44,208 nt of DNA from an uncultured Alphaproteobacteria bacterium (GTDB taxonomy: Bacteria; Pseudomonadota; Alphaproteobacteria; RF32; CAG-239). The translations under genes were made by a program, and so were the position numbers. The stretch covers positions 1 through 44,208 of the forward strand of contig CALXTE010000015.1 of assembly GCA_944391345.1 (NCBI GenBank), read 5' to 3'. The notes below the pieces were generated by a model. It had not been told where the DNA came from and ran no database searches. It saw only the letters and a list, made by a program, of their open reading frames with translations. Below, one piece after another: positions 1,687-35,947 of the stretch. Positions within the stretch are counted from its first letter, which is position 1; each line of letters starts with the position of its first letter.

Positions 1687-3030
1687 ATGGATAATAAAAC
1701 AATTTATGCCTTATCAACCGTCAGCGGCAAATCTGGCGTTGCCGTTATCAGAATTTCAGGTGACCGCGCTTTGGAAGCGGTTCGGCTGATGACAAAAATC
1801 ACCGATAAAGAAATAAAACCGCGTTATGCTTATTACACAAAATTAAGAGATGTTAAAAACGCTCAGGTAATAGATAATGTTCTGATGTTATATTTCAAAG
1901 CGCCGAATTCTTTTACCGGAGAAGACATTGTTGAATTTCATACCCATGGTTCTCGAGCCGTTATTGCCAGTGTAATTAAAAATCTTGGAATGATAGATGG
2001 CTTTCGCTTGGCCGAAGCCGGAGAGTTTTCCAAACGCGCTTTTTATAATAATAAAATGGATTTGACCGAGGCTGAAGGCTTAGCCGATTTAATAGACGCC
2101 GAAACCGAAGCCCAACAAAAATATGCCCTGCGCCAAATGGAAGGAAATTTAAAAAACATCTATGAGGAATGGCGCTCCGAGCTAGTTGAGATTGAAGCTT
2201 ATCTTGAAGCCTTCATTGATTTTCCGGAAGAAGAAATACCGGATGATATTACCAAAAAAATCGAAAACAGTGTATTTAAATTGCAAAAAGCGATTGAAGA
2301 ACACTTGTCAGCCGACAAAATCGGTGAAAGATTAAGAGAGGGATTCCGTGTTGTGATTGTCGGCCGCCCAAACGCCGGAAAATCAAGCTTGCTTAATGCG
2401 ATTGCCAAAAGAGATGTGGTGATTGTTTCAGACATTGCCGGCACAACGCGTGACGCGATTGATATACACTTAGACTTAAAAGGCTATCCGGTCATTATAA
2501 CCGACACCGCCGGAATCCGAGAAACCGAAGAAGCTATTGAAAAGCAAGGGGTCGAGATTGCTTATAAAAAAATCCAAGACGCCGATATGTTGATTGCGAT
2601 ATATGATGCCTCAACAGACAGTGTTCAGCTTTTTGATAATATTAAAAATAGCTTTGATGGCGAAATTATCTATGTTGCAAATAAGTGCGATAAATTAAGC
2701 GCGGAAGAAAAGCAACAACAAGATAAAGAAGGCCGCATTTTAATTTCGGCCAAAAATCATGACGGTATTGATAATCTGCTGAACAAAATCAGCGAAGTTA
2801 TTGCTGATAAATTTACCTCAAACTCAAATACGATTATCACCCGCGAGCGCTACCGTGAAGCTTTGAAAGAATGTCTTGATAATCTGAAAACCTTTAATTT
2901 GAATAAGGAAATCGAACTGAGTGCCGAAGATATTCGCCTTGCTGCCCGTGCAATTGGTAAAATTACCGGCCGCATAGAGGTTGAAGAAATCTTGGATAAA
3001 ATATTCGGTAGCTTTTGTATCGGAAAATAA
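1687..3030 (+). CDS. mnmE: tRNA uridine-5-carboxymethylaminomethyl modification GTPase MnmE
   Basis: MnmE works with MnmG to install the (carboxymethyl)aminomethyl group on U34 of tRNAs reading NNA/NNG codons. The N-terminal tetrahydrofolate-binding domain covers about residues 1-115. A helical domain is interrupted by the G domain, which has the P-loop GRPNAGKS at about 226-233 and DIAGTTRD and DTAG behind it. The protein ends in the family signature FCIGK, whose cysteine is catalytic. The start chosen is the ATG at 1687, preceded by AAGGAG, rather than an in-frame TTG 48 bases upstream; the result is 447 aa, normal for the family. One copy of the GTATTTAAA motif lies inside it (SVFK) and two more just after its stop. 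Confidence 0.97.
   Translation: MDNKTIYALSTVSGKSGVAVIRISGDRALEAVRLMTKITDKEIKPRYAYYTKLRDVKNAQVIDNVLMLYFKAPNSFTGEDIVEFHTHGSRAVIASVIKNLGMIDGFRLAEAGEFSKRAFYNNKMDLTEAEGLADLIDAETEAQQKYALRQMEGNLKNIYEEWRSELVEIEAYLEAFIDFPEEEIPDDITKKIENSVFKLQKAIEEHLSADKIGERLREGFRVVIVGRPNAGKSSLLNAIAKRDVVIVSDIAGTTRDAIDIHLDLKGYPVIITDTAGIRETEEAIEKQGVEIAYKKIQDADMLIAIYDASTDSVQLFDNIKNSFDGEIIYVANKCDKLSAEEKQQQDKEGRILISAKNHDGIDNLLNKISEVIADKFTSNSNTIITRERYREALKECLDNLKTFNLNKEIELSAEDIRLAARAIGKITGRIEVEEILDKIFGSFCIGK
2267..2280 (+). repeat. GTATTTAAA motif copy 1 (inside mnmE)
   Basis: Reads ACAGTGTATTTAAA, in the frame giving N-S-V-F-K in MnmE. It is one of 14 plus-strand copies of the motif in the window. Confidence 0.75.
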
Positions 3031-3034
3031 ATAA

Positions 3035-3048
3035 ACACTGTATTTAAA
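3035..3048 (+). repeat. GTATTTAAA motif copy 2 (after mnmE)
   Basis: Reads ACACTGTATTTAAA and begins five bases after the mnmE stop codon. Noncoding copy. Confidence 0.8.
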
Positions 3049-3057
3049 AATTAAAAA

Positions 3058-3071
3058 ACACCGTATTTAAA
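3058..3071 (+). repeat. GTATTTAAA motif copy 3 (after mnmE)
   Basis: Reads ACACCGTATTTAAA followed by C. It lies 23 bases after copy 2 in the same orientation, in the mnmE-HAD intergenic gap. Confidence 0.8.
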
Positions 3072-3143
3072 CTCTATAATTTTAAAAGTATTGTTAAAAG
3101 GCTAAAAATGGAGTAAACTAAAAAAACAAGGTGGGAGATAGAA

Positions 3144-4100
3144 ATGTCCCAAGAAAAAACAAATAATAAAGAAGATAAAAAACAAGCTGTCATATTAGAC
3201 GTTGACGGCGTTTTAAACAGTTATTCTAACAGCCGATTTTATTTTCAGTTTATATTTAAGAGTTTTAGAAATATGGCAAAAGTCCGCAGCCGAAAAGAGC
3301 TGCTGAAAGAACTTCCGAAATTAAAAAAGCACGGTGGACCGAATGCCCTATTCTCTTTTGCCAAAGAATTTTGTAGGGATGATGATACTTTTGAAGCCTA
3401 TAAAAATAATTTAATTAACAGTCTGAATTTTAATTTGATAAAACATGATCCTTCTCTTCGGCGTATGATGAAAAATTTAAGCAACTATGGAGATATTTGC
3501 GTTAGAAGCGACGGCTTAACAGATATATCTTACGCGGCATGGCAAAGAGTAATTGAGGACAGACCTTCCGCCAGTATTAAATATCATTTGAAAACCAACA
3601 AAAACAGCGAAACTTTCCGAACAACGGATTTTAATAATCAAAACATCACTATAAGCGGTATCGAAGATAACGGTTTTAATGTAAAAACGGATTTAGAAAG
3701 CTGGAAAAAGTTTTCTGATAAGCATAAGATAGATTTAGATAAATCGGTTTTAATTGATGACAGTCGCGACAATCTTGATACGGCAAAAAAATTAAACATG
3801 ACAACGGTTCATATCAGCAAACTTGATAGCTTATTGCAAGGAACGGGATTGGGAACAATCTATAATCACAGCCTATCGGATATTTTGGGTGAGAGATTAA
3901 GCTCAACCTTAAAAAGACTAAAAATTTCATACGGTAAAAAGGTTGATTTAAAACAATTGTTCAAAGCCCTACTGCAAGGAAAGTCCGAAGAAAAAAAACA
4001 GCCAACGCCCTTCGAAATAACTTATCCTTCGAGCGTTAAAACAATGTATTTAAACTTTTTTTTTGAAAAAAATACACCGTATTTAAACTCTTTTTGGTAA
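3144..4100 (+). CDS. HAD-like hydrolase, 318 aa
   Basis: The N-terminus has a HAD motif I, AVILDVDGVLNS (Asp19, Asp21). A motif IV-like VLIDDSRDNLDTA lies near residues 210-222, followed by a short strand as in the HAD fold. Motifs II and III are less obvious, so the enzyme class is uncertain. The long insert between motifs is rich in Lys and Phe. GGGAG precedes the ATG at good spacing. The last residues, from KTMYLNFFF to TPYLNSFW, are encoded by two copies of the GTATTTAAA motif, so the C-terminal tail looks like a read-through of repeat DNA rather than a conserved domain. It overlaps the convergent gene at 4083-4775 by 18 bases. Confidence 0.75.
   Translation: MSQEKTNNKEDKKQAVILDVDGVLNSYSNSRFYFQFIFKSFRNMAKVRSRKELLKELPKLKKHGGPNALFSFAKEFCRDDDTFEAYKNNLINSLNFNLIKHDPSLRRMMKNLSNYGDICVRSDGLTDISYAAWQRVIEDRPSASIKYHLKTNKNSETFRTTDFNNQNITISGIEDNGFNVKTDLESWKKFSDKHKIDLDKSVLIDDSRDNLDTAKKLNMTTVHISKLDSLLQGTGLGTIYNHSLSDILGERLSSTLKRLKISYGKKVDLKQLFKALLQGKSEEKKQPTPFEITYPSSVKTMYLNFFFEKNTPYLNSFW
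4041..4054 (+). repeat. GTATTTAAA motif copy 4 (3' end of HAD gene)
   Basis: Reads ACAATGTATTTAAA followed by C, translated as T-M-Y-L-N at the tail of the HAD protein. It is the only copy with A at position 4. Confidence 0.7.
4074..4087 (+). repeat. GTATTTAAA motif copy 5 (ends of two convergent genes)
   Basis: Reads ACACCGTATTTAAA followed by C. On the plus strand it encodes T-P-Y-L-N of the HAD protein. On the minus strand its complement supplies the TAA stop codon of the convergent HAD gene. Confidence 0.8.
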
Positions 4101-4775
4101 AGATTTTTTCTCATATTCATGAATAAGTGCTTCATGTAAATCTTCCATTGTTTCAAAAACATTATCCGCATCGGTTTTAATGCAAATGTTACGATAGGCA
4201 TCATTATTATTAGCCTCGGCACCGATAAAAGCAAAAACTTTCATACCGGCGCGTTTTCCGGCCTTAATTCCATCAAGTGAATCCTCAATCACAAAACATT
4301 CATGTATGGGATACCCCATTTTTTTAGCCGCTAAAAGAAACAAATCGGGCGCGGGTTTACCATGTTGAACCATATCAGCCGTAAAACAATTTTCTTTTGA
4401 AAAATAACAATCAATTCCGACGGCATGATTTTTTGTGTTGTTCTGATATTCAGTACCACCTGTTGCGATACATTGAGTAAAGCGTGAATCCTTAAAAATC
4501 TCCTCAACACCTTTTGTTAAAGTTAGAAGATTTTTCATACCATAATCATGAAGTTTATTGAGCTTATCCTTAAAACCATCATCAATTTTAAGATTCGGAA
4601 AAGATTTCTCAAGACGTACAACCTTATCTTTTTCTGAAATTCCGATAAGCAAATTTCTTTTTTCTTGTTCGCTAAGAATTATATTTTTCTCGCTTTTTAA
4701 CAGCTTTGCCCAGTTATTCGCCCAAATGCCGTCACTGTCACAAATAACGCCGTCAAAGTCCCAAATAATCAGCAT
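4083..4775 (-). CDS. HAD-superfamily hydrolase (phosphatase/phosphomutase-like), 230 aa
   Basis: Cytosolic HAD subclass I hydrolase, paralogous to the gene at 818-1501. Motif I is IIWDFDGVICDSD (Asp6, Asp8), motif II is in CIATGG, the motif III lysine is in HGKPAPDLF, and motif IV is VIEDSLDGIKAG. The physiological substrate is unknown. The chosen start is the ATG at 4775, with AGGAG 10 bases upstream; an in-frame TTG at 4784 sits too close to that site. The stop codon falls inside a copy of the GTATTTAAA motif, and the gene overlaps the convergent plus-strand HAD gene by 18 bases. The upstream side faces mnmG divergently. Confidence 0.85.
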   Translation of the reverse strand: MLIIWDFDGVICDSDGIWANNWAKLLKSEKNIILSEQEKRNLLIGISEKDKVVRLEKSFPNLKIDDGFKDKLNKLHDYGMKNLLTLTKGVEEIFKDSRFTQCIATGGTEYQNNTKNHAVGIDCYFSKENCFTADMVQHGKPAPDLFLLAAKKMGYPIHECFVIEDSLDGIKAGKRAGMKVFAFIGAEANNNDAYRNICIKTDADNVFETMEDLHEALIHEYEKKSLPKRV

Positions 4776-4845
4776 GATAAACAATCTCCTTTTTCATATC
4801 AAATTAGCACGATTTTATTAATATAAGATTATAACAACAATAAAT

Positions 4846-4859
4846 ACACTGTATTTAAA
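4846..4859 (+). repeat. GTATTTAAA motif copy 6 (upstream of mnmG)
   Basis: Reads ACACTGTATTTAAA followed by C, in the divergent gap between the HAD gene and mnmG. The bases around it, AAATACACTGTATTT, also make a small imperfect palindrome. Apart from this copy and AT-rich DNA I see no convincing feature in the gap at 4776-4981. Confidence 0.8.
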
Positions 4860-4981
4860 CTTACACCATGAATTTCTTGTAAAAAAATCATAAAAAATAA
4901 GGGCTTGAGACTTTAAAACACTTGCCAAAAGCCACAAACTGTTGTAGTCAATAATCAAACTTAAATTTAAGGCAATCAGAA

Positions 4982-6826
4982 ATGAATAACTACGATGTAA
5001 TTGTTGTCGGCGGAGGACACGCCGGATGTGAAGCTTGTGCCGCTGCAGCCAGAATGGGAGCGAAGACTGCTCTTATCACCCATAAAATTTCAACGATTGG
5101 AGAAATGTCTTGCAATCCGGCTATTGGCGGATTAGGAAAAGGACATCTTGTCCGTGAGATTGACGCGCTTGATGGATTAATGGGGCGTGTGATTGATAAA
5201 GCTGGAATTCAGTTTCGTATGCTAAACGCCTCAAAAGGGCCGGCTGTCCGTGGTCCGAGAGCGCAAGCCGATAGAGAATTATATCGTAAATATATGCTTG
5301 AAGCTTTACAAAATCAGGAAAATTTAGATATTATTGAAGCCGCAGCCGAAGGCTTGATAATTGATAACAACAAAGTTAAGGGCATAATCTTGGCCAATGG
5401 TGACAAGATAGAAGCTAAAGCAGTTATTTTAACATCAGGAACATTTTTAAACGGGGTTATGTTTACCGGCCATCAGGCAACGGTCGGCGGCCGAATTGGT
5501 GAAATTTCTTGTGCCGGTATAACACCGTATTTAAACAGCTTGGGACTAAAAGTCGGCCGTTTGAAAACCGGAACCCCTGCCCGCTTGAATGGGAAAACTA
5601 TTAACTGGAATATATTACCCAAACAAGCCGGTGATGAAAATCCCGTTCCTTTTTCTTTCCTGACAACTTCCCTACCCCAACGCCAGATTGAATGCGGTGT
5701 GACCAGAACAAATGAAAAAACGCATAAAATTATCCACGATAATTTTGAAAAATGCGCCTTGTTTTCAGGTCTGATAAAAGGTATTGGTCCACGCTATTGC
5801 CCAAGCATTGAGGACAAGCTGGTAAAATTTCCGGACCGTGACAGTCATCAAGTCTTTTTGGAGCCGGAAGGTTATAACACGGATGTTGTCTATCCGAACG
5901 GAATATCAACATCGTTACCGGCAGATGTTCAGGAACAATTTATCCATACCATGGAAGGCCTAGAAAATGTAGAAATTTTACGTTATGCTTATGCAATTGA
6001 GTATGATTATGTTGATCCGCAAGAGTTAAACAATAAGCTTGAAGTTAAAAAGGCCTCTGGTCTGTTTTTGGCTGGACAAATTAACGGCACCACCGGTTAT
6101 GAGGAAGCCGCCGCTCAAGGATTGGTTGCTGGTGTTAATGCTGCCCTTTTAGCTTTAGGCAGAAACGAAAGTTTTTCCATCGACCGTAGCGAAGGTTATA
6201 TTGGTGTGATGATAGATGATTTAATCACCAAAGGTGTTGATGAACCATATCGTATGTTTACCTCACGTTCGGAATACCGCTTGCTACTTCGCGCAGATAA
6301 CGCTGATTTGCGTTTGACGGAAAAAGGGCATCAAATCGGTGTTGTCGGTGAAGAAAGATACAGTGTATTTAAAGCTAAAAAAGAGCAACTTGATAATTAT
6401 AGAGAAGAACTAAACAACCTTCAAACCAAATATTCGGTACTTGATTCTTTAGGTATAAAGGTCAAACAAGACGGCACCAAGAGAACCGCCTTTAATCTTA
6501 TGTCTTATGAAAATGTTTCACGTGAAACAATCAACACGATTTGGCCAGAATTAAAATCCATGCCGGATAATATTTTTGAACAACTGGATATCGAAGCGCG
6601 TTATTCTGGCTATATCAAAAGGCAAGAAGTCGATATTGAATTGTTCAAAAAAGATGAGAAATTAAAAATAAGAGAAGATATTGACTACAGCAAAATTGGA
6701 GGACTTTCGCGCGAGATGGTTCAAAAATTATCAAAAGTCAGACCATCAACAATTGGAGAGGCCTCACGCATTCCCGGCGTAACACCGGCGGCTATAACCG
6801 CTATCCTTGGATATATCAAACACTAA
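4982..6826 (+). CDS. mnmG: tRNA uridine-5-carboxymethylaminomethyl modification enzyme MnmG
   Basis: FAD-dependent partner of MnmE in wobble-uridine modification. The dinucleotide-binding GGGHAG lies at residues 10-15 after a beta strand. The signatures [14 protein letters not shown] and [11 protein letters not shown] are present, as is the conserved C-terminal domain ending in a helix ([11 protein letters not shown]). At 614 aa it has the normal length. The ATG follows AAGGC. A consensus parS palindrome lies in the gene at 6514-6529, encoding N-V-S-R-E-T-I, and two GTATTTAAA motif copies lie at 5522 and 6360. A third copy begins on the base immediately after the stop codon. Confidence 0.97.
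5522..5535 (+). repeat. GTATTTAAA motif copy 7 (inside mnmG)
   Basis: Reads ACACCGTATTTAAA followed by C, in the frame T-P-Y-L-N, just before the conserved GRLKTGTPA segment of MnmG. Confidence 0.75.
6360..6373 (+). repeat. GTATTTAAA motif copy 8 (inside mnmG)
   Basis: Reads ACAGTGTATTTAAA in the frame Y-S-V-F-K of MnmG, a different frame from copy 7 in the same gene. Confidence 0.75.
6514..6529. promoter_or_regulatory. parS: parS site 1 (within mnmG)
   Basis: A perfect 16-base palindrome, TGTTTCACGTGAAACA, matching the known chromosomal ParB-binding consensus. It is read as N-V-S-R-E-T-I within MnmG. parA and parB lie 2.5-4.3 kb downstream. ParB-CTP clamps are expected to load here for origin segregation (family knowledge). 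Confidence 0.95.
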
Positions 6827-6840
6827 ACACTGTATTTAAA
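6827..6840 (+). repeat. GTATTTAAA motif copy 9 (after mnmG)
   Basis: Reads ACACTGTATTTAAA followed by C. It starts on the first base after the mnmG stop codon and ends 14 bases before the ATG of the next gene. Confidence 0.8.
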
Positions 6841-6854
6841 CTTTGGAAAACACT

Positions 6855-7472
6855 ATGAAAGGCTATCCGAACAGAGAACAGGCTTTATCAATCTGGCAAG
6901 AGGGTTTGAATTTCAGAATCACAAACTATGGTTTTGATGTTGCTGATGAATATGTTTTTCATACCAAAGGAATTGCTGAAAGCTGTGAGATAATTGCTAA
7001 GCAAATTTCAGAACTAAATGCAGAAAAAGCCTATGTTCTTGGCCTACTCCATGATTATGGAAAAAAATATCCTGAAAAAGAATTAGGTAGATTCCATGGT
7101 CGCTATGGCTATGAAGAGATGATGCAAATGGGATTTCCGGATGTAGCTCGCGTATGCTTGACTCATAGCTTTTACGCCTCAGATTTTAACAAAGACGACT
7201 ACAAAAATTATTCTTCAACAGATTTAGATTGGGCAAAAGATAAGCTGAAAAACATTGTTTTTGATGACTATGATAGATTGGTTCAACTCTGTGATATGTT
7301 TTTTGAGGGACTTAATAAAGTAACTTTTGAAAAAAGATTTGAAGGCATTATGAAGCGTCATAATCTTAGTTTTGATAATGTTAAAAATTTATATCGTCAT
7401 GCGGAAGAAAATAAAAAATATTTTGATATGAAATGCGGCACGGATGTTTATAAATTATTAGGCATTTTATGA
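6855..7472 (+). CDS. HD-domain phosphohydrolase, 205 aa
   Basis: A predicted cytosolic metal-dependent phosphohydrolase of the HD superfamily. The metal ligands visible are His36 (VFHTKG), His66-Asp67 (LLHDYGK), a downstream His in LTHSF and an Asp in QLCDMF. The arrangement resembles YqeK-type and other nucleotide-acting HD proteins, but the substrate cannot be assigned. The ATG at 6855 is preferred over an in-frame TTG at 6843; neither has a clear ribosome binding site, and motif copy 9 fills the space. The codons are notably AT-rich. Together with the next gene it separates mnmG from rsmG, which are usually adjacent. Confidence 0.75.
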   Translation: MKGYPNREQALSIWQEGLNFRITNYGFDVADEYVFHTKGIAESCEIIAKQISELNAEKAYVLGLLHDYGKKYPEKELGRFHGRYGYEEMMQMGFPDVARVCLTHSFYASDFNKDDYKNYSSTDLDWAKDKLKNIVFDDYDRLVQLCDMFFEGLNKVTFEKRFEGIMKRHNLSFDNVKNLYRHAEENKKYFDMKCGTDVYKLLGIL

Positions 7473-8451: not shown

Positions 8452-9075
8452 ATGGAAAATATCATAGAAAAATATAATGTTTCACGTGAAACAATTTCGC
8501 TTTTAAAGGCTTATGAAGCTTCTCTGATTGAGTGGCAAAATAAGTTTAATCTTGTTAGTAAAACAACACTTGAAGATGCTTGGAACCGCCATTTTGTAGA
8601 TTCAATTCAGTTGCTTCCACTTATTCCTGATAAGGCTAAATTACTTTATGATTTTGGCTCTGGAGCTGGTTTTCCTGGGATGGTATTAGCAACAGTATTA
8701 AAAGATAGAACACCGTATTTAAAATTTAAATTGGTGGAAAGTATAAAAAAGAAAACACTGTATTTAAACTTTGTCAAAGAACAACTTGGTTTAAATAATG
8801 TTGAAGTAATAAATGACCGAATTGAAAATTTACCACTTGAAAAAGCAGACGTCATAACTTCAAGAGCAATGTGCTCTTTAACCGAGCTTTTGAATTATGC
8901 TTATAAATTTTGTTCTAAAAACACAAAATGCATTTTTCCAAAAGGAAAAAAACATCAGGAAGAAATTTTAGAAGCAAAGAAAAAATGGAATTTTAATTGC
9001 GAAATTATTCCGAGTATAACAAATGCCGAAAGTGCAATTTTAGTAATAACAAACTTATCTTTAAAAAGGAGATAA
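8452..9075 (+). CDS. rsmG: 16S rRNA (guanine(527)-N7)-methyltransferase RsmG
   Basis: SAM-dependent methyltransferase (GidB family) that modifies G527 of 16S rRNA. The SAM-binding loop is DFGSGAGFPGMV at about residues 66-77. WNRHFVDS before it and TSRAM after it are also typical. At 207 aa it has normal length. The first codons contain a consensus parS site (N-V-S-R-E-T-I), a well-known location in this family. Two GTATTTAAA motif copies 45 bases apart give TPYLKF and TLYLNF around the LVES segment. It is followed four bases later by parA and reads as the first gene of an rsmG-parA-parB operon. Confidence 0.95.
   Translation: MENIIEKYNVSRETISLLKAYEASLIEWQNKFNLVSKTTLEDAWNRHFVDSIQLLPLIPDKAKLLYDFGSGAGFPGMVLATVLKDRTPYLKFKLVESIKKKTLYLNFVKEQLGLNNVEVINDRIENLPLEKADVITSRAMCSLTELLNYAYKFCSKNTKCIFPKGKKHQEEILEAKKKWNFNCEIIPSITNAESAILVITNLSLKRR
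8478..8493. promoter_or_regulatory. parS: parS site 2 (within the start of rsmG)
   Basis: A second perfect TGTTTCACGTGAAACA palindrome at codons 9-14 of rsmG, 1,964 bases from site 1. The flanks A-T on the left and AT on the right also match site 1. It lies 0.6 kb before parA. Confidence 0.95.
8710..8723 (+). repeat. GTATTTAAA motif copy 10 (inside rsmG)
   Basis: Reads ACACCGTATTTAAA in the frame T-P-Y-L-K of RsmG. Confidence 0.75.
8755..8768 (+). repeat. GTATTTAAA motif copy 11 (inside rsmG)
   Basis: Reads ACACTGTATTTAAA followed by C, in the frame T-L-Y-L-N of RsmG, 45 bases after copy 10 in the same frame. Confidence 0.8.
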
Positions 9076-9079: not shown

Positions 9080-9859
9080 ATGCCAAGAATCATAGCAATC
9101 GCAAACCGCAAAGGTGGAGTCGGAAAAACCACGACAACAGTAAATGTTGCGACGGCAATGGCCGCGGCAGGAAAAAAAGTATTAGTTATAGACCTTGACC
9201 CACAGGGAAATGCATCAACCTCGATGGGAATTGAAAAGAAAGGACGAATGGCCTCTTCTTATGAAGTTCTGCTTGGCGAAGTAAGTTTATCACAAGCCGT
9301 CGTCTGGACCGAGATTCCAAACTTTTCAATTGTGCCGGCCTCTGCAGATTTAGCCGGAGCCGAAGTTGAACTTGTCGACATAGAAAACAGAGAATTTGCC
9401 TTGAAAAGAGCTCTAAAAGACAGTGCTGTTAATTATGATTATGTTTTAATCGATTGCCCTCCTTCTTTAAGCCTGGTAACCATAAATGCATTAGTTGCTG
9501 CAAATGCCGTTATTGTACCATTACAATGCGAATTTTTAGCACTTGAAGGCGTGACTGATTTGATTAAAAACATAAACATCATCAAAAAGAAATTTAATCC
9601 GGATTTGGAATTACAAGGCGTCGTTCTGACCATGTATGACAAGAGAAATAATTTAAGCCAAATGGTTGAAGATGATGTACGTAATTTCTTTGGCAAAAAA
9701 GTCTACCAAACCGTTATTCCGAGAAATGTCAGAATATCGGAGGCCCCTTCTCACGGTAAGCCGGTTTTACTATATGATTTCAAATGCTCAGGTTCTCAAG
9801 CCTATATTAGCTTAACCGGAGAAGTTTTGAAAAGAGAAAAGGAATTAGTTGCATGTTAG
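9080..9859 (+). CDS. parA: Chromosome partitioning ATPase ParA (Soj)
   Basis: P-loop ATPase that, with ParB-parS, moves the replicated origin. The deviant Walker A KGGVGKTT lies at residues 11-18, with the signature lysine of the ParA/MinD class. VIDLDPQGNAS follows as the A' motif and LIDCPPS as Walker B. At 259 aa with no N-terminal DNA-binding extension it is the chromosomal (Soj) type rather than a plasmid ParA with a regulatory domain. AGGAG lies seven to eight bases before the ATG. The 3' end overlaps parB by seven bases, suggesting translational coupling. Confidence 0.97.
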   Translation: MPRIIAIANRKGGVGKTTTTVNVATAMAAAGKKVLVIDLDPQGNASTSMGIEKKGRMASSYEVLLGEVSLSQAVVWTEIPNFSIVPASADLAGAEVELVDIENREFALKRALKDSAVNYDYVLIDCPPSLSLVTINALVAANAVIVPLQCEFLALEGVTDLIKNINIIKKKFNPDLELQGVVLTMYDKRNNLSQMVEDDVRNFFGKKVYQTVIPRNVRISEAPSHGKPVLLYDFKCSGSQAYISLTGEVLKREKELVAC

Positions 9860-10878
9860 AAAACGGATTTGAGGAATTGAGTAAAGCCATGAATCAAGAA
9901 AATAATCACAAGCGCAAAAGTTTAGGACGCGGTTTGGGTGCTCTTTTGGGCGACGACGACATTAGTTTTGAAGATGTAGAACAACAGGTAGAAAACACAC
10001 ATCATGCTGAGAGCAATAAAATAAACATCAATCAAATTGATCCCAGCCCCTATCAGCCAAGAAAAGAATTTGATGAAGAGGCACTGAAAGCACTTGCCGA
10101 ATCTATCAAAGAAAAAGGTGTATTGCAGCCGCTTTTGGTTCGCAAAAAAGAAAACGGCTACGAACTGATTGCCGGAGAAAGAAGATTAAGAGCTTCAAAA
10201 CTTGCCGGTTTGACCGAAGTTCCGGTAATTGTAAAAGAGATGAGCGACAAAGAAGTTTTAGAAGTTGCTTTGGTTGAAAATCTTCTGCGTGAAAATCTGT
10301 CTTCTATTGAAGAAGCCGAAGGCTTACAGCGCTTAATGAATGAATTTTCTCACACCCAAGAAGCTTTATCTCAAATTGTCGGTAAATCAAGAAGCCACAT
10401 TGCTAACACTTTAAGATTGTTGGCTTTACCGCTTTCTGTTCAAAACATGATAAAAGAAGGAAAGCTTTCCGCCGGACAGGCAAGAAATTTAGTCGGGCTT
10501 GAAAATGCCGAAGAACTGGCCTTGCTTATAATTAAAAAGGACTTAAATGTTCGTCAGGTTGAAGAACTGGTAAATAAATTAAAGTCAGGAAAAATCGCAG
10601 ACAAAAAAGAAAAAGTTGCGAAGAATGAAGACATTGCCGATATAGAAAAAGACTTAAATAAAAAGCTTGGATTACAGATAAAGATAAATCCGAATAAACA
10701 AGGCGGCGGAAAAGTCGTTTTGCAATATGGATCGATTGCTGAGCTGGATATGATAATAGAAATTCTTGATCAAAAAAGAAAAAATTATCAGAACACAGGA
10801 ATAAACCTATCATCACCGCAGCCACAGGAACAACCAGCCGTCAGTGAAGAAAAGTTCACCATGAAAATCATAGACTAA
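9853..10878 (+). CDS. parB: Chromosome partitioning protein ParB (Spo0J), CTP-dependent clamp
   Basis: ParB binds parS and spreads as a CTP-dependent sliding clamp. The N-terminus has the ParA-interacting stretch RKSLGRGLGALLGDD. The CTP-binding domain follows, with the GERR motif (LIAGERRLRASKLAG) at about residues 105-120, then a helix-turn-helix (SQIVGKSRSHIANTLRLL) that reads parS. The C-terminal part is a dimerisation domain ending KFTMKIID. The ATG at 9853 overlaps parA and has AAGGA at good spacing; the internal ATG at 9889 would also keep the ParA-interaction motif. Two cognate parS sites lie upstream in mnmG and rsmG. Confidence 0.97.
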   Translation: MLENGFEELSKAMNQENNHKRKSLGRGLGALLGDDDISFEDVEQQVENTHHAESNKININQIDPSPYQPRKEFDEEALKALAESIKEKGVLQPLLVRKKENGYELIAGERRLRASKLAGLTEVPVIVKEMSDKEVLEVALVENLLRENLSSIEEAEGLQRLMNEFSHTQEALSQIVGKSRSHIANTLRLLALPLSVQNMIKEGKLSAGQARNLVGLENAEELALLIIKKDLNVRQVEELVNKLKSGKIADKKEKVAKNEDIADIEKDLNKKLGLQIKINPNKQGGGKVVLQYGSIAELDMIIEILDQKRKNYQNTGINLSSPQPQEQPAVSEEKFTMKIID

Positions 10879-28688: not shown

Positions 28689-30191
28689 TTAAGCTTCTGT
28701 TTCTTCGGAAGAAACAATTTCATAACCGGTATAAGCATCCACCACCGAGTTAGCAAAGGCAAAATCCGTAGAATTGCAAGCATAAATACGATAAATAGGC
28801 TCACCTTGCTCAACCGAATCACCAACTTTTTTAAAGAGGTCAATTCCGGCACCTGCATATTGCCCCGCACCGGCTAAAACGCCGATTTTATTGATTCTGG
28901 CATTGTCTATGGCTTCAATAACCCCGCTGACATTCGCTGTAATATCACGAGAAAGTTTTCCGATTTTGGGTTGCGGAACTTTTCCTTGTGCTTTAATAAT
29001 ATTGTTCATCATCTCCAACGCCCGACCGGAATCCAAAATCTCTTTTGCCACAAAATAACCTTGCCCGCCACGCAGCTTGGGGTCAAATTCAAGCATGCGC
29101 CCAGCCAAAAAGAGCGATTTTTCGCGCAAATCCTGTGGTGCATCTTCACTGTTTTTCAGAACTTTAATCACATCGCGCGCTTCAAGCACCGCGCCGATTC
29201 CATTACCGATAGGCTCACTTCCGTCGGTAATCACCACATCAATATCAATTGAGAGCATATCACCGACAAATTCCATAAGCTTGCGCAGGCGCATTGCTTC
29301 ATTAGCGCTTTTTATGCGCGATTTTGCACCGACCGGAATATCAATTAATAAATTTGTCACACCGGCCGCCATTTTAATGGCAAGAATAGAGGCAGCAATA
29401 TGTTCTTGTTGTGCAATGCCGATTTGTCGTTCAACATTGCTGATAATACGGCTTGCGGGGCAAATATCGAGCTTATCATAGCTAACGATTGCGGCGCGGT
29501 TTTCTTCAATCAGAGTTTTAAGCCGCTCTTCATCAAAATCAACATTTGTCAAAACGCCCATTGTATCAGCCACACCGGCACAAGACGTCAAAGAATGAGA
29601 AGCTGTTTTAGGCATAGCTAATCCATAAGCACCGACAATTGCCGTAATAATAATGTCGGTTTTATTCCCCGGAACACCGCCGAGCGAGTGGCAATCAACC
29701 ACCAAACTTTCGTTATCCCAGTGTAAAACCTTGTCTCCGATCATCGCCTCGGTCAAAGACAAAACCTCCGGCGCAGACATAAAAGAACCGGAAGCCACCA
29801 AAAAAGAGGCAATATCCATATTTGAATATTTTTTAGAGGTAATATCATTAATAATGGCGCTATATTCGGCAGAGGTCAGAATGTTTCCGGCAATTTTGCG
29901 TTTTATGGCATTTGTGCTGACCGGCACCGGAGAAAGTGTCAAAGAAACTTTTGCGCCTTCAGGAAGATTAATTTGCTTAAAAGCTTCATCATTAAGGGCC
30001 AATTCATCAGGAGAAACCAGAGCCTCATCATCAACAATCTGCAAAAAAGCGGTAATTGTTTTAATTCCGCCATGCACCTCAATCTTAACCAAAGAATTAA
30101 TGTCATCGGTTTTATAAGCCGCGCAGTTTCGGCTGAGATAAACAATATTTTCATTAAAAGACGCAATGGGCAGATGTTTAAGAGTCAACAT
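28689..30191 (-). CDS. Thymidine phosphorylase / AMP-phosphorylase-like family protein
   Basis: A nucleoside phosphorylase of the long (about 500 aa) class found in alphaproteobacteria and related to archaeal AMP phosphorylase. An N-terminal beta-rich domain (about 1-90) precedes the DeoA-like catalytic domain, in which VVDCHSLGGVPGNKTD, the TSCAGVADTMGVLTNVD region and ITDGSEPIGNGIG are typical phosphate- and nucleoside-binding segments. Whether it acts on thymidine, uridine or AMP is not decidable here. The ATG at 30191 with AGAGG ten bases upstream is preferred over the in-frame extension to 30221, giving 500 aa. Confidence 0.88.
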   Translation of the reverse strand: MLTLKHLPIASFNENIVYLSRNCAAYKTDDINSLVKIEVHGGIKTITAFLQIVDDEALVSPDELALNDEAFKQINLPEGAKVSLTLSPVPVSTNAIKRKIAGNILTSAEYSAIINDITSKKYSNMDIASFLVASGSFMSAPEVLSLTEAMIGDKVLHWDNESLVVDCHSLGGVPGNKTDIIITAIVGAYGLAMPKTASHSLTSCAGVADTMGVLTNVDFDEERLKTLIEENRAAIVSYDKLDICPASRIISNVERQIGIAQQEHIAASILAIKMAAGVTNLLIDIPVGAKSRIKSANEAMRLRKLMEFVGDMLSIDIDVVITDGSEPIGNGIGAVLEARDVIKVLKNSEDAPQDLREKSLFLAGRMLEFDPKLRGGQGYFVAKEILDSGRALEMMNNIIKAQGKVPQPKIGKLSRDITANVSGVIEAIDNARINKIGVLAGAGQYAGAGIDLFKKVGDSVEQGEPIYRIYACNSTDFAFANSVVDAYTGYEIVSSEETEA

Positions 30192-30779: not shown

Positions 30780-30804
30780 TAAAACTTTTTTAAGGAAACA
30801 AAAA

Positions 30805-31203
30805 ATGATAGGCTTAGTTTTGGTCACCCATGGAAAACTGGCAGAAGAATTTATATCGGCAATGCAACATGTTGTTGGTCCGCAAGATCAAGTTCGCGCC
30901 GTATGCATCGGCCCCGAAGACGATATGGAAATGCGCCGTGCGGAAATTTTAAATAAAGTCGGCGAAGTTGACAACGGCAGCGGTGCAATTGTTTTGACCG
31001 ATATGTTTGGCGGCACACCGTCAAATTTGGCCATTTCGATTATGGATAAAGCTAAAGTTGAGATTATTGCCGGCATAAATCTTCCGATGCTGATAAAGCT
31101 TGCCAGCTTAAGAAAGGACAAATCCTTGAAAGAAGCGGTTGAGGGGGCGCAAGAAGCCGGAAAAAAGTATATTAATGTCGCATCAAAATTGCTGGGAATG
31201 TAA
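30805..31203 (+). CDS. PTS EIIA component, mannose/fructose (EIIA-Man) type
   Basis: A stand-alone EIIA domain of the mannose family. It opens MIGLVLVTHGKLAEEF with the phosphorylatable His9, and contains VLTDMFGGTPSNLA, a conserved loop of the family. At 132 aa only the A domain is present; no IIB, IIC or IID genes are nearby, so a regulatory role is more likely than sugar uptake. The start is the ATG at 30805 with AAGGA seven bases upstream. HPr follows three bases after its stop. Alphaproteobacteria often use such a protein as the end point of a regulatory phosphorelay. Confidence 0.93.
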   Translation: MIGLVLVTHGKLAEEFISAMQHVVGPQDQVRAVCIGPEDDMEMRRAEILNKVGEVDNGSGAIVLTDMFGGTPSNLAISIMDKAKVEIIAGINLPMLIKLASLRKDKSLKEAVEGAQEAGKKYINVASKLLGM

Positions 31204-31206
31204 GCA

Positions 31207-31482
31207 ATGTCTGAAGAAATAAGCGTAGAACTTGAAGTTAAAAATAAAAAAGGTATCCATGCACGTGCGGCGGCAGCCTTTGTCAAAACCATTGAAGACA
31301 TGGACGCCGAAGTCACTGTTGAAAGAATCGGCCAGACGGTAAGCGGCTGCTCAATCATGGGCTTAATGATGTTGGCCGCAGCCAAAGGCACCACCATAAA
31401 AATCAATGCCCGCGGTAAAGAAGCCCAAAAAGCCATAGATGCCTTGACCAATTTGATAAACAGCAAGTTCGGAGAAGAATAG
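31207..31482 (+). CDS. ptsH: Phosphocarrier protein HPr
   Basis: Small phosphocarrier between enzyme I and the EIIA above. The active-site His18 lies in GIHARAAAAF, and the regulatory serine is Ser49 in SGCSIMG (equivalent to Ser46 of Bacillus HPr). Having both residues fits regulation by the HPr kinase encoded at 12338-12760. At 91 aa it has normal length. Enzyme I is not in the window. The methyltransferase gene starts one base after its stop. Confidence 0.95.
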   Translation: MSEEISVELEVKNKKGIHARAAAAFVKTIEDMDAEVTVERIGQTVSGCSIMGLMMLAAAKGTTIKINARGKEAQKAIDALTNLINSKFGEE

Positions 31483-31483
31483 G

Positions 31484-32410
31484 GTGAAAGAAAAAGCACC
31501 ACGTAACAAAACGCTTGAACTTAGCCCTAAAGAAATGAACGAATACGCCAAAAGGGCAATTAAATTAAATTTTAAAGCTTCAATAGATTATATCTTAGAT
31601 AAAACCATTCATCAAGACATGATGAAAACACTGGATTATCTGCCGGATTCATCGGTTGATTTGATAGTGGTTGACCCGCCGTATAATCTAACCAAAGTCT
31701 TCGGAAACAGTGTATTTAAAGAGCGCGATTTTAGCGAATACAAAAAATGGCTTGAAAAATGGATAAAAAAACTTCCGCGTATCTTGAAGGAAAACGGGAG
31801 TTTGTATATTTGCGCCGATTGGAAAACATCAATTGTCATACCGGAAGTTGCCGGCAAATATTTTATCTTGCAAAACCGCATTTCTTGGGAAAGAGAAAAG
31901 GGCCGCGGCGCTAAAGATAACTGGAAAAATTGCTTGGAAGATATCTGGTTTTTTACCAAAAGCAAAGATTATACATTTAACCTCGATGCGGTAAAAATTT
32001 TGCGTCCGGTTGTCGCCCCTTATCGCGATGAACAAGGCGAACCCAAAGATTGGGTTGAAGAAAGCGGCCGTCGCAGCCGTCTGACTTATCCCTCAAACAT
32101 CTGGACCGATATCTCCATTCCGTTTTGGTCAATGCCGGAGAACACCCCTCATCCGACACAAAAACCAGAAAAATTAATTGCAAAATTGATTTTAGCCTCA
32201 AGTAATGAAGGCGATGTCGTCTTTGATCCCTTCTTAGGCTCCGGCACAACTTCTGTCGTCGCCAAAAAGCTCGGCCGCCACTATATTGGCATTGAAAAAG
32301 AAAAAGAATATGTTGCTTATGCTGAGTTTCGTCTTGAACAAGCGGATAGAAACAAAGAAATTCAAGGCTACGAGAACGGTGTATTTAAATCACGCAACGC
32401 CGAAATGTAG
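31484..32410 (+). CDS. Solo DNA adenine N6-methyltransferase, beta class
   Basis: A SAM-dependent DNA methyltransferase. The catalytic motif DPPYN is at residues 64-68, and the SAM-binding motif DPFLGSGTT at about 248-256. This catalytic-first order marks the beta class, to which CcrM belongs. At 308 aa it lacks a C-terminal domain of the kind CcrM uses for recognition, so GANTC specificity should not be assumed. No restriction endonuclease is adjacent. The start is GTG one base after the HPr stop, with GGAG upstream, so it looks translationally linked to the PTS genes. Two GTATTTAAA motif copies lie inside it (SVFK and GVFK). Confidence 0.88.
   Translation: MKEKAPRNKTLELSPKEMNEYAKRAIKLNFKASIDYILDKTIHQDMMKTLDYLPDSSVDLIVVDPPYNLTKVFGNSVFKERDFSEYKKWLEKWIKKLPRILKENGSLYICADWKTSIVIPEVAGKYFILQNRISWEREKGRGAKDNWKNCLEDIWFFTKSKDYTFNLDAVKILRPVVAPYRDEQGEPKDWVEESGRRSRLTYPSNIWTDISIPFWSMPENTPHPTQKPEKLIAKLILASSNEGDVVFDPFLGSGTTSVVAKKLGRHYIGIEKEKEYVAYAEFRLEQADRNKEIQGYENGVFKSRNAEM
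31707..31720 (+). repeat. GTATTTAAA motif copy 12 (inside methyltransferase)
   Basis: Reads ACAGTGTATTTAAA in the frame N-S-V-F-K, identical over 14 bases to copy 1 in mnmE and in the same frame. Confidence 0.7.
32376..32389 (+). repeat. GTATTTAAA motif copy 13 (end of methyltransferase)
   Basis: Reads ACGGTGTATTTAAA, in the frame N-G-V-F-K, about 21 bases before the stop codon. Confidence 0.65.
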
Positions 32411-32480
32411 ATATAAAGTTTAAGTCATAAAATAAAAATCACCACTTGTAATTCGGTTAAGGAAGCATAAATCCATTTGT

Positions 32481-32497
32481 GCCGATGAAATTCGGCA
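32481..32497 (+). promoter_or_regulatory. Small hairpin in the leader of the 34-aa gene
   Basis: GCCGA and TCGGC pair around a six-base loop, about 40 bases before the start codon, with an AT-rich run behind it. It could be an mRNA leader element or a weak attenuator. The stem is short. Confidence 0.35.
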
Positions 32498-32535
32498 GGA
32501 CGAAATCTTTAATAATTTTTTTAGGAGAAATCTTA

Positions 32536-32640
32536 ATGAGTAATAAGAATACGAGTAAAACTGCCTCGAGCAGTGAAAACTCAACAAATAACAGCAATAA
32601 TACGTCAAAAACCGGATGCGGTTGCGGCAAAAATAAATAG
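32536..32640 (+). CDS. Small Ser/Thr/Asn-rich peptide with GCGCG tail, 34 aa
   Basis: A 34-codon gene with a textbook ribosome binding site (AGGAGA at good spacing). The first 26 residues are almost all Ser, Thr, Asn and Lys, and the C-terminus is TGCGCGKNK, with two cysteines spaced by one glycine. No signal peptide or hydrophobic segment. A strong terminator follows about 70 bases later. The Cys-Gly tail could bind metal, form a disulfide or be a modification site; I do not recognise a family, and no maturation enzyme is adjacent. Its separation from the methyltransferase by 126 bases suggests its own transcript. Confidence 0.7.
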   Translation: MSNKNTSKTASSSENSTNNSNNTSKTGCGCGKNK

Positions 32641-32710
32641 CTGTTTATAAAAAACATAATACATATCGTTTGCACGTTTATTATTATCATAATATCACCT
32701 TAATTACACA

Positions 32711-32749
32711 GTCCCGACAAAAAACACACTTGTCGGGACAATTTTTTTT
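32711..32749 (+). terminator. Strong terminator after the 34-aa gene
   Basis: GTCCCGACAA and TTGTCGGGAC form a perfect ten-base-pair stem with a nine-base loop, followed by A-A-T8. It separates this unit from lolA. Confidence 0.93.
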
Positions 32750-32788
32750 CATTATATTAGTCAGAGAAAAATAACAAAGGGGGATATC

Positions 32789-33400
32789 ATGCGAAAATTA
32801 GCATTACTGGCGGGAATACTTATGTTGTTCAGCCCGAAGGCCTTTGCACAAAAAGCATCGGACGTTTTAGAAATTGAAAATTATTTGAACAACATAAAAA
32901 CTTTGCAAGCATCTTTTGTTCAAACCGCAAGCAACGGCAATACATCGGAAGGAAAAATCTATATTGCCAAACCAAACAAGATCCGCATGGAATATGATGA
33001 GCCTGTCAATGTATCCATTGTCGGCGACGGAAACTTTATTGTTTATCATGATAAAGAATTAGATCAAATAACCCATATTGACTATGACGATGTTCCCGCG
33101 AGCCTAATTTTGGCAAATGATATAAAGATTGATGGCAAAAAGATAAAAATAACCGATTTTTATAAAGATTCGGGAACGACTGAAGCTGTTTTTGAATATG
33201 AAGTAAACGGCGAAACACACCCGATAACCTTGGTCTTTAACAATAATCCTTTTGAGCTGAAACAGTGGAAAATCACGGATCCTCAGGGCATAGAAATAAG
33301 TGTCTTTTTATATAATATGGAACAAGATAAAGACCTTGATGAAACACTGTTCACGGTTAAAGAAAAACAAAGCCCGGTAAGAAAGAAAAATCGGAGATAA
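32789..33400 (+). CDS. lolA: Outer-membrane lipoprotein carrier protein LolA
   Basis: Periplasmic chaperone that carries lipoproteins from LolCDE to the outer membrane. A Sec signal peptide ends at KAFA-Q near residue 21. The mature protein has the LolA core: EIENYLNNIKTLQASFVQTASNGNTSEGKIYIAKPNKIRMEYDEP, with the remaining beta strands of the half-barrel. At 203 aa it is normal length. AAAGGGGG precedes the ATG. The next gene, xthA, follows one base after its stop, a pairing common in alphaproteobacteria. Confidence 0.92.
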   Translation: MRKLALLAGILMLFSPKAFAQKASDVLEIENYLNNIKTLQASFVQTASNGNTSEGKIYIAKPNKIRMEYDEPVNVSIVGDGNFIVYHDKELDQITHIDYDDVPASLILANDIKIDGKKIKITDFYKDSGTTEAVFEYEVNGETHPITLVFNNNPFELKQWKITDPQGIEISVFLYNMEQDKDLDETLFTVKEKQSPVRKKNRR

Positions 33401-33401
33401 T

Positions 33402-34208
33402 ATGACAAACATAAAACTTGCAACTTGGAATGTAAATTCCATAAGAATAAGACTGGAACATCTGGCAAGATTTGCCAAAGAAAAACAACCGGATGTCATT
33501 TGCCTTCAAGAGGTCAAAGCCAAGCCGGAAGACTTTCCTTTTGATGACATTCGCGCGCTGGGATATGAAAATATTGCCTTGTATAGTCAGGCCGGCTATA
33601 ACGGTGTTGCCATCCTGTCAAAATATCATCTGGATAATATCGAAGAACGCGACTGGGTCGGCAAGCATGACGCCCGCCATATCAAAGCCACAATATTAGG
33701 TGATGTTGAAATCAACGATATTTATATTCCGGCCGGCGGTGATATTCCGGACCCGATAGAAAACCTCTCTTTTGCCCATAAATTAACTTTTATGGATGAT
33801 ATCGCCGAATATTGGGAACAGCATAAAAAAGAAAACCAAGATAAAAAAATGATAATCTGTGGTGATTTTAATGTTGCTCCGCTGGAAAATGATGTTTGGA
33901 ATCACAAACAAATGCTAAAAATCGTATCTCATACGCCGGTTGAGGTCGAACGCTTAAGCAGATTAAAAAAATCACTTGATTTTATTGATATCGGACGAGA
34001 ATTTCATCCCGAGCCCGAAAAAATTTTCAGTTGGTGGAGTTATCGCAATCCAAACTGGCAAAAAAACAACAAAGGCCGTCGCCTTGACCATATCTGGGCT
34101 ACACCGAAGCTTAAAGAAAACATCAAAGGCTACGAGATTTTTACCGCCACGCGTGCATGGGAGCGCCCGTCCGACCATGTTCCGGTGATTGCCGAATTTT
34201 CTTTGTGA
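33402..34208 (+). CDS. xthA: Exodeoxyribonuclease III
   Basis: AP endonuclease and 3'-5' exonuclease of the ExoIII family used in base-excision repair. LATWNVNSIRIRL carries the catalytic Asn, CLQEVKA the metal-binding Glu, ICGDFNVAP the Asp/Asn pair, RRLDHIW the late Asp-His and PSDHVPV the final His. At 268 aa it is full length. It starts one base after lolA and ends exactly next to the convergent response-regulator gene. Confidence 0.96.
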   Translation: MTNIKLATWNVNSIRIRLEHLARFAKEKQPDVICLQEVKAKPEDFPFDDIRALGYENIALYSQAGYNGVAILSKYHLDNIEERDWVGKHDARHIKATILGDVEINDIYIPAGGDIPDPIENLSFAHKLTFMDDIAEYWEQHKKENQDKKMIICGDFNVAPLENDVWNHKQMLKIVSHTPVEVERLSRLKKSLDFIDIGREFHPEPEKIFSWWSYRNPNWQKNNKGRRLDHIWATPKLKENIKGYEIFTATRAWERPSDHVPVIAEFSL

Positions 34209-34817
34209 TTAAATATTCAATAAATAGCCGCCGTCTTCGGTTTTAATAAGTTGGGCAGAATCATCTTCATGCTCAACTTTTTGCCGCAGACGATAGATAT
34301 GCGTTTCAATCGTGTGGGTTGAAGCTTCTGGGCTATATCCCCAAACTTCTTTAAGAAGCTCATTTTTTGATGTAATATTGGGAGCAGCCTTGTAAAGATG
34401 CTTGATAATAGCCACTTCCTTTTCGGTTAGTTTAACCGTTTCATGGGTTTTCAGGTTAATAATTTCTTTGGCTGTCGGGCGAAGCTCATAATTTCCGAAT
34501 TTCAAAAAACCTTCTGCCGAATTTTCAAAACGATTAATGCACGAATGCAAAGAATCAAGCAATGCCGCAAGATGAAAGGGCTTAACAAAAACATGAACAT
34601 TTTCAAGAGACGCCATCTTTTCATCAGATGAAAACAAAAACAGAGGAACTTTAGCATCAATGCTTTTCAGCAAAGAAACATCTTCATCAACTAACGCAAT
34701 ATCAAAATTCTCATTTTTATCGCGCACAACCGAAAAGCCATCACTCATACGCTCAATTTGCTCGCATAAATCACTGGCAAAAAAATCATCAGAACTCAGC
34801 AGTAAAATATTAGTCAT
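34209..34817 (-). CDS. OmpR-type response regulator, orphan
   Basis: A transcription regulator with a short receiver domain (about 1-110) and a winged-helix DNA-binding domain (about 120-202). In the receiver the acidic pair is SDD near residue 10, the likely phosphoacceptor Asp is in IALVDED, and the conserved Lys is in KPF. The C-terminal KLTEKEVAIIKHL and THTIETHIYRLRQKVE are typical of the OmpR/PhoB class. The receiver is shorter than usual. No histidine kinase gene is near, so the partner is unknown. It is the last gene behind the porin on the minus strand, 14 bases downstream. Confidence 0.85.
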   Translation of the reverse strand: MTNILLLSSDDFFASDLCEQIERMSDGFSVVRDKNENFDIALVDEDVSLLKSIDAKVPLFLFSSDEKMASLENVHVFVKPFHLAALLDSLHSCINRFENSAEGFLKFGNYELRPTAKEIINLKTHETVKLTEKEVAIIKHLYKAAPNITSKNELLKEVWGYSPEASTHTIETHIYRLRQKVEHEDDSAQLIKTEDGGYLLNI

Positions 34818-34831
34818 AAAAACTCCTTTGG

Positions 34832-35947
34832 TTAAAAGCTCAAGCCGATTCCAAGAGCAAAGGCATAACCCTTTCGATTTTTTTCAAGAGCGGGATCTTC
34901 TCCGCGAAAATTAACATGCGCCGCGAGGGCATAAACATGGGTATATTTGTTGACTTGAAAATCATTGGCCAAAAGCCAAATCTGGTCTTTGTTTGATGAA
35001 TTATCGGCTTGAGATTCAAAATAGCCAAGAGAAGACTTAATTGGTCCGAACTGATAGCCGATTCCGGCGTTCCAAGTCTGACCTTCGCGATAACTGTCAA
35101 ACAAGCCGAGAGAAGAATCTTCGCGAGAAATTTCAAAATCATCACCATCAACATAAGTCTTGCGAAAACTTCCGCCGACTGACCAATTTCCGTAAGATAA
35201 GAGTAATCCGGCCGATAAGTCGTTGTCATTTTTATGATAAATCCCATATCCGAGAGAAAGCTCTGCTTGAACAGGACCAAAATTATTTTGATGATACAGA
35301 CCGAGAACATAAGCATCATCACGGTCATAAGCAGCATTAGAACTAACCAACCCCCGGCGGTTTTCCGTGTCGGGAACATACGAAAAACCAAGGGTCGAAT
35401 TATAAATTTCAGGAGTAAAATACGAAACTTTCGGAGCAACGCCGTCAGTATTAATTTCGGTAGAGTTCAGCGTTTTAAAAGATGTTTGAACTCCTTTGCG
35501 CCTTTGCCAGTTTGGGTTAGCAATAAAATCAACAATATCCGAGTTATTAAGTTTTATGGGAGAAACCGAAGGCGCACCGACTGACAACACCGCTGCAGCA
35601 TTAAAAGTTTCACCGACAGAAAGGGTTCCGAACGGTGTATTTAAATCAGCTGAGAGCTGTTTTCCCCAACTTCCGTTATTAAAATTTTGCACTTCTTTAT
35701 CACTGGCCGCCATAAGGTCAAGAAAAACCGTTGCGGAATAATCATCAGAAAAAAAGTAAGAATAAGCCGCATTAAGATTTCCGGCCGCTTGCAAAACATT
35801 GTTTTTTTGCAAATTCTCATAAGGCTTAGTCACATCATTATAGGCATAGAAAAAATCGGCATCACCTCCGATTTCAAAAACACTTTCAGCCCGAGCCGAA
35901 GCCGCCATAAAAACAACCCCGCCCAAAACAAGAAACAAAAATCTCAT
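34832..35947 (-). CDS. Gram-negative porin-like outer-membrane protein
   Basis: A signal peptide (MRFLFLVLGGVVFMAASARA) is followed by a body of alternating short amphipathic strands with many Gly, Asn, Ser and Tyr, and a final Phe in GIGLSF, the classic outer-membrane barrel signature. TPFGTLSVGETF and the general length (371 aa) match general-diffusion porins, 16-stranded by inference. The start chosen is the ATG at 35947 with GGAG upstream; a TTG 12 bases earlier is less likely. On the plus strand it carries a GTATTTAAA copy antisense to LNTPF. The response regulator follows 14 bases later. Confidence 0.85.
   Translation of the reverse strand: MRFLFLVLGGVVFMAASARAESVFEIGGDADFFYAYNDVTKPYENLQKNNVLQAAGNLNAAYSYFFSDDYSATVFLDLMAASDKEVQNFNNGSWGKQLSADLNTPFGTLSVGETFNAAAVLSVGAPSVSPIKLNNSDIVDFIANPNWQRRKGVQTSFKTLNSTEINTDGVAPKVSYFTPEIYNSTLGFSYVPDTENRRGLVSSNAAYDRDDAYVLGLYHQNNFGPVQAELSLGYGIYHKNDNDLSAGLLLSYGNWSVGGSFRKTYVDGDDFEISREDSSLGLFDSYREGQTWNAGIGYQFGPIKSSLGYFESQADNSSNKDQIWLLANDFQVNKYTHVYALAAHVNFRGEDPALEKNRKGYAFALGIGLSF
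35632..35645 (+). repeat. GTATTTAAA motif copy 14 (antisense in porin gene)
   Basis: Reads ACGGTGTATTTAAA on the plus strand; the porin gene is on the minus strand and reads L-N-T-P-F through it, a segment porins often have. It may therefore be coincidental. Confidence 0.5.

Follow-up and report, generated by a model that had tools for sequence, protein, structure and literature searches.

A short, exact and one-directional DNA word around oriC and parS in one family of Alphaproteobacteria

The window analysed here is a stretch of 44,208 bp (contig CALXTE010000015.1) from an uncultured member of the Alphaproteobacteria. It carries mnmE, mnmG and rsmG, followed by a parA-like gene and parB, and a short DNA word that recurs along it is the subject of this work. 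The core of the word, GTATTTAAA, occurs 14 times, in every case on the plus strand and never on the reverse strand. In 100 dinucleotide shuffles the core was found on average 1.22 times with both strands summed, and 14 was never reached; the chance that 14 copies would all fall on one strand is about 1.2e-4. Every copy matches the extended pattern ACRVYGTATTTAAA. The 14-bp word can also be written (A/T)-ACRNYGTATTTAAA, the preceding base being A or T in about 99% or more of cases across the 21 loci described below, and it consists of a degenerate palindrome, ACRNYGT, followed by a one-sided AT tail, ATTTAAA. An initial annotation, made from the letters of the sequence, had reported the 14 copies, their positions, their single strand and their clustering, all of which are borne out more strongly than claimed. 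Its motif stands in the form ACRVYGTATTTAAA, but the consensus that it gave in its title, ACASYGTATTTAAA, was too narrow and fits 11 of the 14; the exceptions are the copies at 4041, which begins ACAAT, and at 32376 and 35632, which begin ACGGT.

Eleven of the copies lie between 2267 and 8768, in a cluster that spans mnmE, mnmG and rsmG up to parA-parB; oriC is outside the window. The first (2267..2280) is in mnmE, in the sense direction, where it is read in an N-S-V-F-K frame. It is followed by a copy directly past the mnmE stop codon (3035..3048) and an intergenic copy 23 bp further on (3058..3071). Another copy (4041..4054) is in sense near the 3' end of an open reading frame (ORF) at 3144-4100, and the next (4074..4087) is at the convergent end of this plus-strand ORF and a minus-strand ORF at 4083-4784. 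The intergenic copy at 4846..4859 lies between the latter ORF and the divergent mnmG. Within mnmG there are two copies, at 5522..5535 (T-P-Y-L-N frame) and 6360..6373 (Y-S-V-F-K frame), and the second starts 154 bp before a parS word, TGTTTCACGTGAAACA, which has no strand and lies inside the mnmG coding DNA (6514..6529). A further copy (6827..6840) is directly past the mnmG stop codon. The rsmG coding DNA contains a second parS word (8478..8493, likewise strandless) and two copies of the motif, at 8710..8723 (T-P-Y-L-K frame) and, 45 bp further on, at 8755..8768 (T-L-Y-L-N frame). The cluster is adjoined by a parA-like ORF (9080-9859, plus strand), for which the best models scored below cut-off, and by parB (9853-10878, plus strand), which is over the TIGR00180 cut-off. 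The ParB of the window scored highest against the Noc model, below the Noc cut-off, and its best matches beyond the family in the scan were mostly Bacillota proteins.

The other three copies are at 31.7-35.6 kb. Two of them, at 31707..31720 and 32376..32389, fall within an ORF resembling an adenine-specific DNA-methyltransferase (31484-32410; best models below cut-offs), the second near its 3' end and 669 bp past the first; this spacing is repeated in four other genomes (G001, G003, G007 and G009). The last copy (35632..35645) is antisense to a porin-like ORF (34832-35959, minus strand). Antisense copies are also found in ORFs of similar length and place, which were not aligned, in G001, G004, G005 and G009. 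Beside this copy is an OmpR-type winged-helix ORF (34209-34817, minus strand) with no recognised receiver domain; in G001 and G004, an unaligned ORF of similar length and place to this one itself holds an antisense copy. The initial annotation was thus right about the antisense copy and about the two sense frames, Y-L-N and S-V-F-K. At gathering thresholds, Rfam models matched only one tRNA and one signal recognition particle RNA in the window.

The genome from which the window comes (1,634,679 bases in 44 contigs, the window being contig 15) contains 16 matches to ACRVYGTATTTAAA, and the reversed pattern, used as a control, gives one. Of the 16 copies, 14 are inside the window and two are on other contigs, so the word is not a genome-wide signal.

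The exactness of the word was examined in 21 mnmE-parB loci of the family, which represent 12 genera and 318,837 bp. They contain 167 exact copies, all of them on the mnmG strand. Copies with one mismatch number 6 on the mnmG strand versus 1 on the other, and copies with two mismatches 19 versus 47. The word has a strict A at positions 1, 8 and 12-14.

Codon alignments were made of the coding sites. The mnmE site is intact in 17/17 genomes (11 genera), with the neighbouring codons varying freely. This alignment covers 17 of the 21 loci: L056 and L068 lack an mnmE match, and L051 and L054 are not in the alignment, though the site is present in both. The two mnmG sites are intact in 20/21 and 19/21 genomes respectively and the two rsmG sites in 17/21 and 20/21 (12 genera), again with variable flanks. 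At the mnmE site and at the first of the two mnmG sites, the identity of third-position columns is 0.9-1.0, compared to gene means of 0.45-0.46. When all 14-bp windows were ranked, the top 12 of 1862 in mnmG and the top 12 of 629 in rsmG overlapped either parS or the word, and among the 1400 windows of mnmE the word scored 17/17 and the best unrelated window 11. The best 14-bp windows in parA and parB reached 16/21 and 12/21 genomes. Both parS words are intact in 21/21 aligned genomes at the 11 positions scored, and parS is the only word that matches the conservation of the motif within mnmG and rsmG. In a further 11 loci of the family, the first mnmG site is present in nine and the second in six. 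Where a site has been lost, silent bases are altered, and in most cases residues too, which indicates that the DNA word constrains the protein and not the reverse. Judged from these alignments, selection is on the DNA, silent bases included, also at places where residues of MnmE, MnmG and RsmG are thereby fixed. This is what the initial annotation had proposed. In genus g4 there are overlapping head-to-tail pairs with a 13-bp period (L178 12402-12428 and L181 2057-2083; also listed for G058, G060, G061, G064 and G065), which implies that neighbouring word units can stack head to tail.

The word is found in all 33 genomes of the family that were searched (15 genera), and in 7 of 24 other Alphaproteobacteria, once in each. 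In a scan of the class, 380 genomes outside the family hold 0-3 copies each (67 have any) and five genomes of the family hold 8-16. The load per genome is several to about 20 dispersed copies. Four contigs carry copies on one strand within 21 kb and none on the opposite strand (CALXTD010000007.1, 8 copies; CASFMW010000013.1, 13; CASFLB010000014.1, 10; JAQWBS010000001.1, 7). Across the order, one or more copies of ACRNYGTATTTAAA are present in 151 of 154 genomes. The word is missing from G115, which is 70% complete, from G122, and from G033, the sole genome of family f2. A check for mnmG was made on 18 of the 154, of which nine have 0-3 copies; six of these nine (G101, G085, G155, G138, G173 and G117) have no full mnmG, and their low counts are attributed to a missing origin region. 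These six genomes are rated 92-100% complete and yet probably lack the origin region, a likely binning loss. In G122, G024 and G033 mnmG is present and the copies are few or none. A scan of viral contigs for close pairs gave one match, L254, with two copies 24 bp apart, apparently a local repeat. No description of the word was found among the matches listed in the literature searched on origin and centromere motifs, a search whose scope excluded most subscription papers.

One explanation of these observations is that the word acts in RNA, as a protein or small-RNA target in the mnmE-mnmG-rsmG-par transcripts. It would fit with the fact that most copies in the mnmE-parB block are in sense or between co-oriented genes, and by reasoning G-U wobble pairing could accommodate the R at position 3 and the Y at position 5. 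The strict A at positions 1, 8 and 12-14 is not expected from wobble pairing. By context in mechanically called ORFs, 106 copies divide into 56 sense, 18 antisense and 32 intergenic, and some of the intergenic ones are between genes of the strand opposite to their own. Of the 57 coding copies located beyond the mnmE-parB block, 39 are in sense, against 33.7 expected from the local gene strands. This slight excess leaves some room for an RNA role, but it is weak at most, since the host gene is counted in the expectation and the genomes are relatives of one another. The copies moreover form a domain around oriC and parS, rather than a scattered set. We consider a role in RNA to be unlikely.

The word could alternatively be a transcription-factor site that regulates the tRNA- and rRNA-modification genes together with the par genes. 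Some intergenic copies do precede genes; the one at 4846, for instance, lies ahead of mnmG. Many others are deep within genes, their orientation is fixed over tens of kb, and their clustering follows oriC and parS and not gene function. The match profile, in which near-matches are rare beside exact copies, is all-or-none, and this is unusual for a transcription-factor site. We regard this explanation as rather improbable.

A third explanation is that the word is a polarity element for the replication fork, such as a Tus-Ter-like barrier, a KOPS-like guide for a translocase, or a Chi-like sequence. In relatives, oriC was taken to be just upstream of rho; Rho itself was confirmed for G001 only (TIGR00767), in which the mnmE copy lies 3.4 kb beyond the start of rho. 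DnaA-box-like 9-mers, as defined by degenerate patterns, are present near the start of rho in 15/15 genomes with rho, and the GC-skew minimum lies within a few kb in all three genomes profiled. DnaA is over cut-off in 6/6 genomes, so the word cannot be put down to the lack of a standard initiator.

In 14 genomes the copies within the stretches retrieved were located relative to rho, and in 13 of these every copy has the orientation of rho, mnmG and parB. Most placed copies are on the mnmE arm and face away from oriC, which together with the exact, asymmetric, one-strand nature of the word speaks for a fork-polarity element. However, 15 copies in five genomes lie to the left of rho and oriC (one each in G001 and G018, three in G023, and five each in G066 and G060), as far as -41 kb, and all 15 have the same absolute orientation as the rest. 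G016 and G113 carry an inverted rho block, and in both the word stays aligned with mnmG-parS and not with rho. Because the orientation does not flip at oriC and does not follow the inverted rho block, it belongs to the centromere domain and not to the replication arm. Among contigs with at least two copies, 37 of 40 have a single orientation (counted by hand, among the copies listed), and none of the loci scanned for far copies has both orientations. The Tus family (PF05472) was found in none of 38 genomes, with a positive control in E. coli. A fork-polarity element is thus very unlikely, and the KOPS- or Chi-like signal put forward in the initial annotation is not upheld, the word being neither genome-wide nor reversed between the replichores.

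The remaining two explanations fare worse. A methyltransferase or restriction target is highly improbable: ACRNYGT has the form of a degenerate palindrome, as read by such enzymes, and two copies are within the methyltransferase-like ORF, but no result of the analysis supports it, and we know of no modification target that resembles a word of 14 bp present 16 times per genome within a single domain and in a single direction. That the word is a mobile short repeat or a product of gene conversion, as had also been suggested, can practically be dismissed, since close pairs and tandem copies (13-74 bp apart) do occur but homologous positions are filled in up to 12 genera with freely varying flanks, and only two of the 16 copies in the genome are away from the window.

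It is concluded that the word is a genuine directional element of the centromere domain, present throughout the family and at the level of DNA: exactly conserved as DNA, clustered at parS and oriC, of single polarity across oriC, restricted to the family, and lost in one genome without loss of parS. The genome in question, G122, is rated 100% complete and retains the mnmE-to-radA gene order, both parS words and ParAB, with no copies of the word. Since the copies are gone and parS is kept, whatever reads the word can be lost. G033 likewise has parS-like words and no copies. A search of G122 for a replacement word using gapped k-mers gave mostly GC-rich or A-rich simple words.

On balance, we think that the word is probably the recognition sequence of a dedicated, putative DNA-binding protein of this one family, which marks the oriC/parS domain and acts in chromosome segregation or origin positioning. 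A family-specific protein would bind (A/T)-ACRNYGTATTTAAA, and the bound word would mark the domain in which oriC and the parS centromere lie, acting beside ParABS and separably from it. This is in keeping with the suggestion in the initial annotation of a chromosome-organisation target. Taken together, its observation is confirmed and its interpretation is supported in part.

To the sense excess of the far copies, already mentioned, have to be added several other points that weigh against this reading. The bare 9-base core GTATTTAAA turns up a single time on the opposite strand in each of 5 loci out of 20, and a few plus-strand cores in these 20 loci are without the AC part. In one genus (G028:C1), 12 copies on one contig, all in one orientation, extend to about 110 kb from rho, which is wider than a tight centromere flank. 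Three of the 40 contigs have mixed orientation: G006:C1 has one plus copy at 29103 and at least six minus copies, G022:C3 has one copy each way, 51 kb apart, and G032:C13 has an overlapping pair at 2297-2317. At about one chance copy per genome, the odd copies on these three contigs can be noise. The parS or parS-like words of G122 and G033 without the motif mean that ParABS as such can do without it. A comparison of origin-near gene content between G113, which has the word, and 40 kb of G122 gave no clear candidate for the binding protein, several G113 ORFs being unmatched. The role in segregation is one that we infer from position only. PF10691 (PopZ) does not follow the distribution of the motif: of 12 genomes, five score over cut-off, including G122 and G033, which have no copies.

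If the word does have such a reader, its orientation says something about how it would be read. By reasoning, an orientation kept over kilobases could not be sensed by proteins that come together through flexible loops, and the natural reader would be one that moves along the DNA or recognises a single strand. The lack of a polarity flip at oriC excludes the replisome as this reader. In other bacteria SMC would be a candidate, but it was over cut-off in none of 12 genomes of the order, with only partial matches (best E-value 7e-8, some in long coiled-coil ORFs). ScpA was found in none of the 33 genomes of the family and not in the single f2 genome; among other Alphaproteobacteria, 12 of 23 have ScpA and 11 do not. 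SMC and ScpA thus seem to be absent from the order, though parB and parS are present. With these missing, ParB-CTP clamps that slide from parS, or a DNA translocase, remain as candidate trackers. In a hypothetical gate or loader model, the word would be a one-way gate, a loading point or an orienting signal for such a sliding or translocating complex. A possible extension, which we put forward tentatively, is that the word is a unipolar centromere code: an asymmetric word set in one direction, whatever the direction of replication, so that a tracking complex moves or loads one way, as part of origin handling in bacteria where SMC-ScpA has not been found. In an order of this kind, the word would offer a handle on how the origin domain is managed without that condensin.

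The word can be compared with several known systems. It occupies the same domain as parS and is comparably conserved in mnmG and rsmG, but parS is a 16-bp palindrome, whereas the word is asymmetric and is absent from G122, where parS is kept. The ram sites of the RacA/ram system are GC-rich inverted repeats. According to PMC6593407, ram is dense near the origin in Bacillus subtilis, where the protein tethers the chromosome at the cell poles, and is also found throughout the chromosome. The word too clusters near the origin, but it is asymmetric, exact and unipolar, and not an inverted repeat. MaoP/maoS is, according to PMC5023128, a site-specific system that organises the Ori macrodomain of E. 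coli through a single maoS site. The word is likewise an element of the Ori region, and on that description differs in having between several and about 20 copies in each genome, at dispersed positions.

The site of MatP in E. coli, matS, is given in PMC6907758 as GTGACRNYGTCAC. Both are domain-specific words, and the central ACRNYGT is the centre of matS as written there, degeneracy included. The matS site is, however, a palindrome of the terminus, while the word has the one-sided ATTTAAA, other outer positions and an origin location. MatP (PF06303) was over cut-off in none of 17 genomes, with one weak match in G024 (18 profile positions, E-value 0.03, with an internal stop), and identity with MatP/matS was rejected; the common centre may be a coincidence.

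KOPS, according to PMC4786541, run from the origin to dif on both replichores. The word resembles KOPS of the KOPS/FtsK system in being exact, asymmetric and orientation-sensitive, and differs from that description in being local, with most copies in one 44-kb window, and in not flipping at oriC. There is also a weak resemblance to the E. coli Ter core; identity with Tus-Ter was rejected because Tus was not found in the 38 genomes and the sites are located around oriC and parS, not the terminus. DNA uptake sequences and Chi have hundreds of copies genome-wide, in contrast to 16 copies of the word in 1.63 Mb, and the uptake signal envisaged at first is not supported. To our knowledge, chromosome-organising words are either palindromes (parS, matS, ram and Noc sites) or replication-polar (KOPS and Ter). 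By comparison, the word appears to be a directional signal in chromosome handling of a sort not described before: one fixed direction across origin and centromere, kept exactly throughout the family, implies a reader of DNA direction, and the word itself is a ready bait for finding its protein.

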